Shown here: positions 5,452 through 36,410 of the stretch, one piece after another
How the letters are laid out: each line of letters begins with the position of its first letter
Numbering within the stretch: the stretch's first letter is position 1
DNA from: a virus
Strand: one strand, 5' to 3'
IMG/VR virus record: IMGVR_UViG_3300035703_002361
Span: 1-36,952 of that record
Length of the DNA: 36,952 bases
Translations under genes and position numbers: made by a program
The notes under the pieces: model-generated
What the model was told of the DNA's origin: nothing
What the model saw: the letters and a program-made list of their open reading frames with translations, nothing else
The model's database searches: none

Positions 5452-5538
5452 TCAGTAAGTTTCGCAAACTTTCTCAACAGAATAGCACAGGAGCACCAGA
5501 AACGCAACCCCTGTAATTGTCCAAAGTGTTTCAATCAT
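5452..5538 (-). CDS. 28-aa single-helix membrane peptide
   Basis: The peptide begins [20 protein letters not shown] and is essentially one transmembrane helix with a short polar end. Its ATG shares TGATG with the stop of the upstream Hli gene, and it ends 5 bp before ferredoxin, so it is coupled into the operon. The size resembles the tiny Pet or Psb subunits of thylakoid complexes, but I cannot match it to one. Confidence 0.6.
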
Positions 5539-5732
5539 CAGAAGATACCGAAGAAGAAGTTGCCAGTGATAGCATAAGAAATAACGCCAGCAACAAAACC
5601 GACCATTGCCCAACGTCCATTAGTACGCTCCTTTACTTGATTAGGGGTGAGCATACCGTAGTTTTCGTAGTACATAGTAGGCTCCTTGGCAAACATATTC
5701 TGCTGTCCAAGTTCATTTGTCGTTACAGTCAT
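5538..5732 (-). CDS. hli: High-light-inducible protein, 64 aa
   Basis: The start MTVTTNELGQQNMFAKEPTM was chosen because it lies about 20 bp downstream of the predicted transcription start; the longer frame would need codons inside the promoter. The C-terminal half holds the single-helix chlorophyll-binding motif ERTNGRWAMVGFVAG, followed by a phenylalanine-rich end. It is the first gene of the redox operon (Hli, 28-aa peptide, ferredoxin, two unknowns, Hli, peroxiredoxin). The function is photoprotection in the thylakoid membrane. Confidence 0.93.
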   Translation of the reverse strand: MTVTTNELGQQNMFAKEPTMYYENYGMLTPNQVKERTNGRWAMVGFVAGVISYAITGNFFFGIF

Positions 5733-5759: not shown

Positions 5760-5788
5760 ATTATATAGCAAAAATAAAAGGGCGTCAA
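5760..5788 (-). promoter_or_regulatory. Sigma70-type promoter of the Hli-ferredoxin operon
   Basis: On the minus strand: TTGACG (-35, 5783-5788), 17-bp spacer, TATAAT (-10, 5760-5765). Start of transcription is expected near 5753, about 20 nt before the hli ATG. The -35 lies inside the hairpin of the preceding terminator. Confidence 0.8.
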
Positions 5789-5796
5789 GCCCCTTT
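5771..5796 (-). terminator. Intrinsic terminator of the glycan operon, overlapping the next promoter
   Basis: On the minus strand an 8-bp stem with one G-U pair (5789-5796 with 5776-5783) closes a 5-nt TTGAC loop and is followed by TATTTTT. It lies about 40 bp after the stop of the last glycan gene. Confidence 0.7.
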
Positions 5797-5833: not shown

Positions 5834-6628
5834 CTATTTTTCTTCAAATCCGGGTGGAAGAGTTCCATAGTAAGGATTATAATCAAACATTGAATTCCAA
5901 TCCTCTACATTAATTGCATCAACTTTCCAAAAATTCCAAAGACTTTCATGAGTACTTTTGTGAAATGTATCAATATGATCAGTATGTATTGAAGACCCCA
6001 ATTCAATTTTATACAAAAATAAAGGAATTGCAAAAGTATTACCAGAATTATAAATTAAATCATCAGCAACCGCTCTAGGTTTAACTCCATTATCAATTTT
6101 ATATTTGTCTCCACGTACATGAAGATCTACTAACTTCTGTGCATGATGACGTGTAATTAAATAACAAGCAGTAGAAAAGTCATTCACAAATCTTCGATGA
6201 AGAGACGCATGAACAGGAGTTGTGCTGATAATTGCAAGTTGAACTACATCATAAGCATAAGGAATCTTTGCATAAAAATCTTTCCAAGTAAAAGGCCAAT
6301 ACTGAACTGTACTTAAATCACAATCATCTTCCATGATCAATGCACATGGATAATCAGTATTTTCTAAAAAATATCGAATTGCTTTTAAATGTGATGTAGT
6401 ACATCCAACTTCTCCAGATGACATCATATCAGGGTATCGTCCTTTTAAAATGTCCCCAAGATCATTTCCATCTCTACCATCGTAAGCAGAAATGCGGGTA
6501 TAATTTTCAATTTCCCAATACTTAAATTGTTCTTCCATATATTGTGCTCTATCTGTTTGAGCATCAATGTTAATATAAAAAATTGGAGGAAGTCCTTTGA
6601 GTTTATATACTGCTTTATTTTTGTCCAT
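5834..6628 (-). CDS. Glycosyltransferase family 25 (LPS-type)
   Basis: 264 residues from the chosen ATG (MDKNKAVYKLKGLPPIFYIN); the frame is open 23 codons further but that part looks non-coding. The layout fits GT25/LPS glycosyltransferases: an N-terminal YINIDAQTDRAQYME, EVGCTTSHLKAI (family signature) and the acidic motif LIMEDDCDL, which binds the metal and nucleotide sugar. The reaction is transfer of a hexose to an LPS-type acceptor on the cytoplasmic side; donor and acceptor cannot be read. It is the last gene of the glycan operon, separated from the next upstream gene by a 50-bp gap, with a terminator behind it. Confidence 0.85.
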   Translation of the reverse strand: MDKNKAVYKLKGLPPIFYINIDAQTDRAQYMEEQFKYWEIENYTRISAYDGRDGNDLGDILKGRYPDMMSSGEVGCTTSHLKAIRYFLENTDYPCALIMEDDCDLSTVQYWPFTWKDFYAKIPYAYDVVQLAIISTTPVHASLHRRFVNDFSTACYLITRHHAQKLVDLHVRGDKYKIDNGVKPRAVADDLIYNSGNTFAIPLFLYKIELGSSIHTDHIDTFHKSTHESLWNFWKVDAINVEDWNSMFDYNPYYGTLPPGFEEK

Positions 6629-6678
6629 TATTAATAAGAATGTATGGAAATGTAGGGGTTTAAATATTGTATTTTTAT

Positions 6679-7317
6679 TTAATGATGTACATAACAATCA
6701 ATACCAAGTTTCTTTAAGTGTGCTGTATATACTGCTCGCTCTTTTTGTTTTGCAATTATTCCCTGCTCTCCCTCATGATACCACATTCGTTCATGCCATT
6801 CAACATGCATTTCAACAATATTTTTATAATAATCAGATTCTATAATGCGTGGAAGAACTATAAATTCAGACCCTTCAATATCACACTTTATATAAATTTC
6901 AGCATCTGGATCTTCTGAACATATGCTCTCAAGTATATCTTCAATTGCAACACATTCGACATCATATTGAACAGTATCAAATAGCACACCATTTCCAATG
7001 TCGATGACTGGATTTGTGTCTAATGCATTGGAACCTGTTGTATATCCCTCCCAATACTCACTCTTTTCTTGGTCCTTCCAAGCACCACGATGACAGTTGA
7101 ATGTAACGACGCCGTTTTCGTCCATCACAGCTTTATTATAAAACTCTAAGGACTTATAGTTTTCTCTAATCTTATCAGCAACTTCTTTTGCCTTTTCCTG
7201 AATCAAGATGTTTGGTTCATAAGAATAGACTTTCCATTCTTTATCTATTCCCAACCTTTTTGTAAACTCTTGCAGTCCTTCTAACTTATGGGCACCAAGA
7301 TCCAAAAAGTGTTTCAT
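6679..7317 (-). CDS. FkbM-family SAM-dependent methyltransferase
   Basis: 212 residues. HFLDLGAHKLEGLQEF is SAM-binding motif I, VYSYEPN motif II, and IYIKCDIEGSEF the FkbM signature; a HVEWHERMW segment follows. Proteins of this family O-methylate sugars in polysaccharides, glycolipids and secondary metabolites. The ATG sits in an ATGA overlap with the upstream gene stop (7314-7317). The substrate is probably a sugar added by this operon. Confidence 0.85.
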   Translation of the reverse strand: MKHFLDLGAHKLEGLQEFTKRLGIDKEWKVYSYEPNILIQEKAKEVADKIRENYKSLEFYNKAVMDENGVVTFNCHRGAWKDQEKSEYWEGYTTGSNALDTNPVIDIGNGVLFDTVQYDVECVAIEDILESICSEDPDAEIYIKCDIEGSEFIVLPRIIESDYYKNIVEMHVEWHERMWYHEGEQGIIAKQKERAVYTAHLKKLGIDCYVHH

Positions 7318-26913: not shown

Positions 26914-27835
26914 TTTCTTTATACCATTGATAAGTTTTTTCAATCCCCTCACGAAGAGAGATCTTTGGTTCCCAACCAAGTGCTTTAATTCGATTGACGT
27001 TCATCACTTTACGGGGAGTTCCATTTGGTTTAGTGAAATCCCAGTTAATATCTCGATCATAACCAACAACATCAGCAATAATATTTGCAAGTTCCCAAAT
27101 TCTAACATCCTCACCTGTTCCAACGTTGATATGTTCTGATTCTTCATACTTCTGCATACAGACGTAACACGCTTCTGCTAAGTCATCAACGTGCAGAAAC
27201 TCACGCATCGCAGAACCATCACCCCAAAGTTTGACTTCCCAGTGCTTGCTATGGTCTAGAGCAGCGTGGAACTTTGCAATCATAGCAGGAAGAACGTGAG
27301 AGGTCTCCAAATCAAAGTTATCATTTGGACCATAAAGGTTCGTAGGCATCAGAGAAATAGCATTAAACCCGTGCTGCTGACGGTATGCCTGGCACATCAT
27401 AACACCAGCAATCTTAGCAATCGCATAAGCATCATTAGTTGGTTCCAAAGGACCAGTCATCAACTGGTCTTCAGTGATTGGTTGAGTTGCAAACTTAGGA
27501 TAGATGCAAGAAGAACCGAGAAATAAAAGTTTTTTAACATTAAAACGATGAGCAGACTCAATAATATTAGTCTGAATACGGAGATTTTCAGTTAAGAAAT
27601 CTGCCTTATAGTTATTGTTTGCCATAATGCCACCAACTTTAGCAGCAGCAACAAAAACATACTCAGGTCTACTAAGTCTAAAAAAAGTATCAGTCTCATC
27701 ATCATCTGTAAAATCTACAACTTGACGAGTTCCTTTAATAATGTATGTGTAACCTTTACTTTCAAGGTTTCTAACGATTGCTGATCCAACCATTCCGTTG
27801 GCACCAGCAACTAATACTCTAGAATCACTGTCCAT
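26900..27835 (-). CDS. fcl: GDP-L-fucose synthase
   Basis: 311 residues from [28 protein letters not shown] is the NADP site, [12 protein letters not shown] holds the catalytic Ser and Cys, and YAIAKIAG the Tyr-x3-Lys pair; [10 protein letters not shown] and GTPRKVMN are further family elements. It performs the 3,5-epimerisation and 4-reduction of GDP-4-keto-6-deoxymannose to GDP-L-fucose. The ATG lies 11 bp inside the end of gmd, so the two pathway enzymes are translated together. The product is used by the GT11 enzyme downstream. Confidence 0.95.
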
Positions 27836-28826
27836 AAATGCACATATCCTCAACAAGTTGTTCAAAGGAAATTTTAGGTTCCCAACCTAATTTTTCCTTT
27901 GCCTTAGTGGCATCACCCAATAAAGTCTCTACTTCAGCAGGTCGAAAATATTTAGGACTTACTTTAATAACGGTTCTTTTGGTAAGTTTATCAATACCAA
28001 CTTCATCAATACCTTCACCTTCCCATACAATACTCATTCCAAAGTATGGTGCTGCTGCCTCAACGAACTCACGAACAGAATATTGTTCTCCTGTAGCAAT
28101 CACATAATCATCAGGTTCATCTTGCTGAAGCATCAACCACATCGCTTCTACAAAGTCCTTAGCGTGTCCCCAGTCACGTTTTGCGTTCAAATTCCCGAGA
28201 TATAATATGTCTTGTTGCCCAGTTGAAATAGATGATAATCCGCGAGTGATTTTTCTTGTGACAAAAGTTTCTCCTCTTCTAGGGGATTCGTGATTGAAAA
28301 GAATTCCAGAACTTGCATGTAGTCCATATGACTCTCTGTAGTTTTTGACGATCCAGTATCCATAAACTTTTGCAACTCCGTAAGGTGAACGAGGATAAAA
28401 AGGTGTTGTTTCTTTCTGTGGAATTTCTTGAACCTTACCAAACATCTCAGAAGTAGATGCCTGATAGATCCTAGTTTTATTCTCCATACCCAGAAGACGA
28501 ACTGCTTCAAGAATACGAAGAGTTCCCAATCCATCAGTTTGACCAGTATACTCAGGCATTTCAAAAGAAACTTTGACATGACTTTGAGCACCAAGATTAT
28601 ATATTTCGTCAGGTTGAACTTGCTGAATAACTCTTACAAGATTTGTAGAATCTGTTAAGTCCCCATAATGTAGTTTAATATCATTGTAAATATGATCAAT
28701 TCTATGAGTATTAATTTGAGAGGCACGACGAATAATACCGTGAACTTCATACCCCTTCTCTAAGAGAAGTTCGCCAAGGTAAGATCCGTCTTGACCAGTA
28801 ATACCTGTAATTAATGCTATTTTCAT
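27825..28826 (-). CDS. gmd: GDP-mannose 4,6-dehydratase
   Basis: 333 residues from [20 protein letters not shown] (the frame is open 16 codons upstream, but those would lie in the promoter). [11 protein letters not shown] is the NADP site with the RxD-type RRAS-x2-N pattern, STSEMFG and SPYGVAK carry the catalytic Thr, Glu, Tyr and Lys, and NHESPRRGE and [10 protein letters not shown] are gmd-specific. It makes GDP-4-keto-6-deoxymannose from GDP-mannose, which the host must supply because no complete ManC is seen here. It is the first gene of the ~23-kb glycan operon, about 20 bp behind a consensus promoter. Confidence 0.95.
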
Positions 28827-28880: not shown

Positions 28881-29011
28881 TCTAGTAACTCAGGCTCGCC
28901 ACTTATTTTTTATCTAGAAATAAGAAACTAGGCGGGGTTTCCCCATCCACACCAGTCGGCATATTTTATGTCCAATCCGACGAGGACAAAATGGGTCATT
29001 GACTCCACCAC
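28881..29011 (-). other. Spacer with several possible hairpins
   Basis: 131 bp with no large gene. It holds short inverted repeats (cttattt/aaataag at 28908-28930 region, GGGG-TTT-CCCC at 28934-28944, gtcgg/ccgac and tgtcc/ggaca overlapping near 28957-28987) and one 23-codon ORF. The repeats could form alternative structures in the RNA behind the 79-aa membrane gene. It shows no tRNA features. Confidence 0.35.
28928..28999 (-). CDS. Possible 23-aa micro-protein
   Basis: The ATG at 28997-28999 is preceded by GGTGGAG at a short distance. The peptide contains FVLVGLDIKYADWCGWGNPA, unusually rich in Trp, Gly and Cys for random sequence. It lies 12 bp after the 79-aa membrane gene, before the terminator. 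It is supported only by the ribosome-binding site and composition. Confidence 0.3.
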   Translation of the reverse strand: MTHFVLVGLDIKYADWCGWGNPA

Positions 29012-34385: not shown

Positions 34386-34757
34386 TCAGAAGGCGTAACG
34401 AACTTTCAGTTCACCACCAAGAGCAAAGATTTCAGAATCAAAACTATGCTCACCTGCGACTTTGGCTTTGATAGAAACGCTTTCTCCTACAGGAAAAGTA
34501 GCACCGAGTTCGCCAACGGCAACTGCTTCGTTACCGAGACCAACATTATTCCACTCATAACCAGGACCAATCTCAGCAAAGAGAGTGATGCCACTATCAA
34601 GTTTCTGCTCATAACCAACACGCAGTTCAGTTTGAGCGCCAGTATAATCACCATCAACAATGGCACCAGTAGTCTTGCTTTCAACATAAGGGCCAGCAAA
34701 TGCAGCCGAAGCAAGGAAAGGAGTTGCAGCAACAGCTGCGATTGCGGATTTAAACAT
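34386..34757 (-). CDS. Secreted outer-membrane-like beta protein, 123 aa
   Basis: The start MFKSAIAAVAATPFLASAAF was chosen because GAGG lies about 8 nt before it and it begins a standard signal peptide (cleavage likely after AFA-G, near residue 21). The mature ~100 residues alternate polar and hydrophobic residues in strands (TELRVGYEQ, ITLFAEIGPGYEW, VSIKAKVAGEHSF, GELKVRYAF) and end in Phe, as outer-membrane barrels do. It may insert into the host outer membrane, for example to alter receptors or block superinfection; this is inference. It has its own promoter, a hairpin-containing leader and a terminator. Confidence 0.75.
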   Translation of the reverse strand: MFKSAIAAVAATPFLASAAFAGPYVESKTTGAIVDGDYTGAQTELRVGYEQKLDSGITLFAEIGPGYEWNNVGLGNEAVAVGELGATFPVGESVSIKAKVAGEHSFDSEIFALGGELKVRYAF

Positions 34758-34778
34758 AATAGTACCTCTATATTTTCT

Positions 34779-34819
34779 CGCAGAGTTTTCTGCGGATGTA
34801 AGGAGTTTCGACAAACTCC
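34779..34819 (-). promoter_or_regulatory. 5' leader with two hairpins before the outer-membrane-like gene
   Basis: Two perfect inverted repeats: GGAGTTT-CGAC-AAACTCC (34802-34819) and CGCAGA-GTTT-TCTGCG (34779-34794). They lie in the ~110-nt leader between promoter and Shine-Dalgarno. Confidence 0.5.
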
Positions 34820-36324: not shown

Positions 36325-36410
36325 ATAGACCTCCTGGTTTGTGCATCGTTGAGAGGCATAGGAGGGGCGGGTCTTACAGGAGGGTTGGAACCTCGCCTGC
36401 CCATGAGAGT
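36325..36410 (-). other. Leader between promoter and tRNA-Ile
   Basis: 86 bp, GC-rich for this window. It can form a 7-bp stem GGGCGGG/CCTGCCC enclosing a hairpin (GAGGTT/AACCCTC). TTCCAAC inside it resembles a tRNA T-loop, so it may be the remnant of a lost tRNA. No gene is seen. Confidence 0.4.

Follow-up and report, generated by a model that had tools for sequence, protein, structure and literature searches.

Predicted intrinsic terminators and sigma70-type promoters that share the same bases at operon boundaries of cyanobacterial viruses

The DNA analysed here (the window) is a complete viral record from IMG/VR, 36,952 bases long, and is related to freshwater cyanomyoviruses, among them the Synechococcus phages DSL-LC02 and DSL-LC03. 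Because the window is an isolated contig, counts were made in its relatives. Nearly all of its genes lie on the minus strand, including a glucosyltransferase gene (5834..6697, -; phrog_2835, 5.4e-127) and, downstream of it, a high light inducible protein gene (hli; 5538..5732, -; phrog_178, 1.4e-28). Between these codirectional genes, at 5796-5760 (-), a predicted intrinsic terminator and a sigma70-type promoter are contained within about 37 bases (site 1). The terminator hairpin, AAAGGGGC-TTGAC-GCCCTTTT (5796-5776, -), has an 8-bp stem and a folding energy of -10.5 kcal/mol, and its loop (TTGAC, 5788-5784) belongs to the -35 hexamer TTGACG (5788-5783, -), the sixth base of which also closes the hairpin loop. 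The T-tract ATTTTTGC (5775-5768, -) doubles as part of the promoter spacer, and the -10 element TATAAT (5765-5760, -) follows at a spacing of 17 bp from the -35, giving a sigma70 consensus score of 11/12. A preliminary description of the window had claimed precisely this layout, and a re-reading of the sequence bears out the 8-bp stem, the TTGAC loop that is also the -35, the T-run within the 17-bp spacer and the TATAAT.

Two further sites in the window have a related organization. Site 2 lies upstream of a nucleotide-sugar epimerase gene (27825..28826, -; phrog_540), the first gene of the glycan operon. Its hairpin, AGAGGTGGGTT-GCATA-AACTCACCTTT (28883-28857, -), has an 11-bp stem and the loop GCATA; the presumed -35, TTGCAT (28874-28869, -), agrees with the consensus at 3/6 positions and has its first letters, half of the hexamer, in the stem, and a perfect -10, TATAAT (28851-28846, -), begins 17 bp after it. 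Orthologues of this -35 conserve TTG and read TTGCAT, TTGCAA, TTGCGC or TTGACA. An identity of TTGCAT with a MotA box was rejected on the misfit of both spacing and letters. Site 3 has a codirectional gene of unknown function upstream (34386..34814, -; phrog_417) and, on its other side, a small conserved gene; relatives of the latter start MSLISQRDR. Here the hairpin GGGGGTT-GACA-AACCCCC (34363-34346, -) is followed by the T-tract TTTTTT (34345-34340, -), the -35 TTGACA (34358-34353, -) lies partly in the 5' arm and partly in the loop, and the -10 is TATTAT (34335-34330, -), for a consensus score of 11/12.

All three sites have the features of an intrinsic terminator, with stems of 7-11 bp, energies of -10.5 to -16.3 kcal/mol and T-tracts, and those of a sigma70-type promoter (a TTGACA-like and a TATAAT-like hexamer 16-18 bp apart), the latter being weakest at site 2. 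A fourth strong terminator in the window, with a 10-bp stem (4020-3993, -), has no overlapping promoter. Sites 2 and 3 had been described as repeating the design of site 1. The hairpin/promoter layout does recur at both, but neither has TTGAC in the loop, and among the three sites the exact TTGAC loop is found at site 1 only. Since the -35 of site 2 is TTGCAT and half of it is in the stem, and that of site 3 straddles arm and loop, a rule that the loop matches TTGACN is too narrow and fits site 1 alone. More generally, the -35 hexamer occupies the apex of the hairpin, with several registers represented.

The abundance of such elements was measured with a composite detector that rests on arbitrary thresholds: a terminator needed a fully paired stem of 6 bp or longer with 4 or more GC pairs, a loop of 3-8 nt and a T-tract; a promoter needed a -35 with TT and no more than two departures from TTGACA, a spacer of 16-18 bp and a -10 with no more than one departure from TATAAT. 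Among 200 hairpin terminators from 10 complete cyanomyovirus genomes, 26 have a -35 at the apex. The register is sharp, with the -35 of these 26 starting 1-5 nt before the loop centre and other 5-nt bins holding 0-8. Shuffling of the loop and downstream flank predicts 1.85 +/- 1.3 fused elements (maximum 7 in 300 rounds), so that the enrichment over shuffled sequence sought in related genomes was indeed found. Swapping real flanks among terminators, a null that keeps the -10 boxes of other fused elements in play, predicts 6.5 (maximum 13 in 500). In a non-redundant set of 262 hairpins, mainly from IMG/VR loci plus the window and DSL-LC02, the apex bin holds 46 against 2.4 expected.

Fused elements make up 13% of the strong hairpin terminators of the 10 genomes, or 18% of those outside ORFs, and the count varies widely by genome, from 0/13 in the marine phage Syn9 through 1/15 in S-PM2 to 5/25 in a freshwater IMG/VR genome (G001); the isolates S-SRM01, P-SSM2 and DSL-LC03 have several each. 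Using the same detector, no apex-overlap element was found in Syn9, T4 or RB49; Syn9 retains the hli promoter without a hairpin. The proposal of a genome-wide strategy therefore holds to the extent that the design recurs in relatives above chance, but it is not universal. When an intrinsic terminator has a sigma70 promoter next to it, the two usually overlap: 25 pairs do so and 7 are separate, although the thresholds of the two classes were slightly unequal and a score of at least 10 leaves 21/26 overlapping elements. The elements are mostly located between codirectional genes, about 25 nt past the upstream stop codon; the upstream ORF is apparently on the opposite strand in 4/26 cases, possibly through ORF-calling errors.

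Other kinds of promoter also adjoin hairpin terminators in these phages. A T4-type late -10 (TATAAATA, at most one mismatch) occurs within 14 nt of the stem at a further 22% of intergenic terminators; the count is 33/200 against 11.2 expected (maximum 20), a comparison in which the T-tract itself favours matches. These late promoters often begin 4-9 nt past the stem and use the end of the T-tract (DSL-LC02 89852, 128299, 143411 and many others). In addition, about a dozen sigma70-like promoters have their predicted start at the foot of a hairpin plus T-tract (L011:2945, L122:1281, L130:11403 and others), and RNA from promoters of this class would therefore begin with that hairpin.

The hli promoter is informative because its orthologues in IMG/VR vary in the stem (GGGGTG/CACCCC, GGGGC/GCCCC, GAGGGG/CCCCTC, GGGAGG/CCTCCC) while TTGAC, the 17-bp spacing and TATA(A/C)T are kept. 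The invariance of TTGAC is partly by construction, because most of the hexamer was already specified in the search pattern; stem pairing was not imposed by that pattern. Position 6 of the -35 pairs with position -3, and in hli elements of the main register this pair is TA in 7, GC in 4, AT in 2 and CG in 2. All four Watson-Crick pairs thus occur at the sixth base of the -35, arguing that the hexamer yields to pairing there. The T-tract is coupled to the hairpin: at least 7 T residues are present in the spacer window of 30/32 hli promoters with a hairpin versus 3/13 without (Fisher p = 5e-6, which ignores kinship and, as related sequences are not independent, overstates the significance). The three hairpin-less promoters that do have a T-tract resemble decayed hairpins. 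The hli family therefore displays both compensatory stem change and a T-tract coupled to the stem, as a terminator should. Because a T-tract would be pointless for an operator or a cruciform, the evidence favours a terminator. What the sequences themselves show is the structure, its conservation and covariation, the register and the coupling of hairpin to T-tract.

The composite pattern with 17-bp spacing matches 101 IMG/VR viral contigs, and control patterns with the spacing shortened by three (14 bp) or with a scrambled loop gave 0 matches each in IMG/VR. The pattern did not require a stem, yet 75 of the 80 composite matches listed, out of the 101 in total, form a perfectly paired one of 6 bp or longer. 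A survey of 84,980 bacterial and archaeal genomes with the composite pattern gave 8 occurrences, all in Clostridia-type MAGs, and at least 2 of the 8 adjoin chromosomal cell-wall genes; the design is therefore mostly but not exclusively viral. Fused elements sit ahead of at least 30 different gene families. They are also found in apparently non-T4-like phage contigs (L378, L379, L386, L427, L435), suggesting that the fused element may have arisen convergently. A near-identical fused cassette (GGGCTTGACGCCCCCTTTTTTATGC..TATAAT) precedes different genes in marine-type contigs (L383, L399, L401, L403, L406, L412, L415, L417, L418), of which L401 is T4-like by its clamp and clamp-loader genes. These near-identical marine copies hint at a cassette that might be shared or mobile across genomes.

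Site 2 has an additional neighbour. A match to the wcaG RNA (RF01761, 74.9 bits) at 28888..28989 (-) ends 4 nt before the hairpin, and in relatives a fused element follows 3-9 nt after the RNA in 13/14 cases (loci L014, L016, L035, L040, L053, L056, L166, L174, L182, L197, L209, L213 and L230). In its published description (PMC2864571), the wcaG RNA lies ahead of exopolysaccharide genes and is a candidate for regulation in cis from the 5' UTR. The window agrees with that description in having exopolysaccharide genes downstream, with the site 2 hairpin directly after the RNA, but differs from the published 5' UTR reading in that a predicted promoter lies between wcaG and the operon, as in the 13/14 relatives. 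The supposed target operon would therefore usually have its own promoter past the RNA, a prediction that changes the reading of wcaG and questions a simple role as a 5' UTR cis-regulator. Either the wcaG RNA would end there as a short RNA, or it would govern only the read-through that is added to transcription from the downstream promoter. An attenuator in which wcaG pairs with the terminator arm was judged by eye and rejected, as variation of the arm breaks the pairing. Another RNA family is represented elsewhere in the window, where a match to abiF RNA (RF03085, 49.3 bits) lies at 36329-36365 (-) in a tRNA-rich part of the contig.

Each of the three sites is very probably a composite operon boundary, with a predicted terminator and a host-sigma70-type early promoter on the same bases. 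The hairpin and T-tract would end the transcript of the codirectional upstream genes, and the same bases would also supply the next operon with the -35 and spacer of an early promoter of host sigma70 type. The two elements fit because the 3' arm (7-9 nt) and the T-tract (7-9 nt) together span the 16-18 bp that separate a -35 from its -10. Variation in the stem would be tolerated as long as it remained paired, and the hexamer would be held by sigma. The new transcript would begin past the hairpin and so would not contain it, and the upstream RNA would end about 15-20 nt ahead of the next start. With such a short distance between RNA end and start, terminating and promoter-bound polymerases should exclude each other. 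Given the known footprints of RNA polymerase, this DNA should not hold a terminating and a promoter complex at once, and initiation and termination are likely, on steric grounds, to interfere. Because terminator and promoter function are read from sequence, we infer actual termination and initiation at these sites, along with mutual exclusion and any re-use of terminated polymerase.

The nearest known relative of this arrangement is the promoter-early stem-loop (PeSL), described in papers that cite the original work as a composite terminator/promoter motif of T4-like phages (PMC4503421, PMC3950731). PeSLs of RB49/phi1, PST and nt-1 resemble the cyanophage elements in joining a strong early promoter of sigma70-like type to an intrinsic terminator at early-gene boundaries of T4-like myoviruses, and the cyanophage elements likewise hold a terminator and an early promoter in one short unit. 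PeSL cassettes of T4-like phages reportedly mediate shuffling (Arbiol 2010 and Comeau 2014, as cited by later papers), and the PeSL copies of RB49 are said to be repeated and to recombine. The geometry differs, however. In RB49 the promoter follows the T-tract, with a -35 peak about 25 nt past the loop centre (8/31 hairpins), and the same detector found no hairpin with a -35 at the apex among the 31; the cyanophage peak is at the apex, and terminator and promoter overlap base for base. The cyanophage element is therefore a geometric variant and not a PeSL sensu stricto. RB49 also has early promoters on its minus strand (115033, 117409, 121736, 122881, 134549) in which an inverted repeat (e.g. 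GGGGATCGGTGATCCCC) fills the -35/-10 spacer without a T-tract, and this repeat is possibly an operator.

Overlap in a single element is also not described in the available parts of studies on post-termination recycling by bacterial RNA polymerase, where a terminator near a promoter likewise favours re-use of polymerase but terminators and promoters are separate (PMC6978380, PMC11347151), nor in the available part of the LUZ100 paper. A literature search of incomplete coverage found no description of the overlapping geometry. What would be new is this geometry, the composite terminator/promoter kind being already known.

Several explanations can be offered for the overlap itself. Simple economy, in which the overlap would spare intergenic DNA without any part in regulation, is quite possible if doubtful. 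The geometry fits without extra cost, and the median intergenic length is 94 nt at fused elements (n=25) versus 140 nt where the two are separate (n=7). Compaction, as proposed in the preliminary description, is a weak benefit, however, as about three elements per roughly 200-kb genome, at about 46 nt each, save only about 0.06% of the genome, and the same genomes retain many unfused terminators, with Syn9 having no fused element at all.

A coupled hand-off, in which polymerase would stay on the DNA after termination and re-initiate at the fused promoter, thereby linking successive early operons, is unlikely, although it has a physical basis. According to the recycling studies, E. coli polymerase mostly releases the RNA first, diffuses on the DNA and re-initiates at nearby promoters, with an efficiency expected to depend on the terminator-promoter distance (PMC6978380, PMC11347151). 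In the fused elements this distance is effectively zero, and the elements succeed each other on one strand. On the other hand, re-initiation works across hundreds of bp, so overlap would be unneeded; a terminating complex on the -10 could block the promoter instead; and the measurements concern E. coli polymerase. It is quite unlikely that the overlap is a selected coupling device which would leave terminated polymerase on the next promoter, fire early cyanophage operons in relay and let upstream transcription set downstream initiation.

A PeSL-type mobile cassette, in which a portable unit of terminator and promoter, present in repeated copies, would permit gene shuffling by recombination, is very doubtful. 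The PeSLs of T4-like phages are reported, in papers citing the original work, to mediate such shuffling, and fused elements do precede many unrelated genes. However, copies within a cyanophage genome are dissimilar (median identity 0.44, maximum 0.56), unlike the repeated similar copies of PeSLs, and the marine T4-like contigs with near-identical cassettes have one copy per record; repeated mobile cassettes within cyanophage genomes were thus tested and found unsupported.

Finally, a reading of the hairpin as no terminator but an operator or cruciform in the DNA at the -35, with a regulatory effect on the promoter, is highly improbable and was rejected on stem covariation and T-tract coupling: the inverted repeat is indeed centred on the -35, and RB49 has that other, operator-looking promoter class with a spacer inverted repeat and no T-tract, but the stem varies freely with compensatory changes, to the point that one position has all four pairs, in contrast to a sequence-specific site. 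Moreover, hairpin and T-tract are coupled (30/32 versus 3/13), and the gene upstream, usually codirectional, has its stop codon about 25 nt ahead of the element.

The overlap of predicted terminator and promoter in many cyanobacterial viruses is real, conserved and far above chance. Its outcome could be occlusion, neutral economy or hand-off of the terminated polymerase. The same 37 bases can satisfy the geometry of both an intrinsic terminator and a sigma70 promoter, and phages appear to have arrived at the fused design repeatedly, ahead of dozens of different genes. Annotation tools that treat promoter and terminator as separate features may misread such boundaries. In the fused elements nature provides templates on which to ask if a polymerase that terminates blocks or feeds the promoter beneath it.
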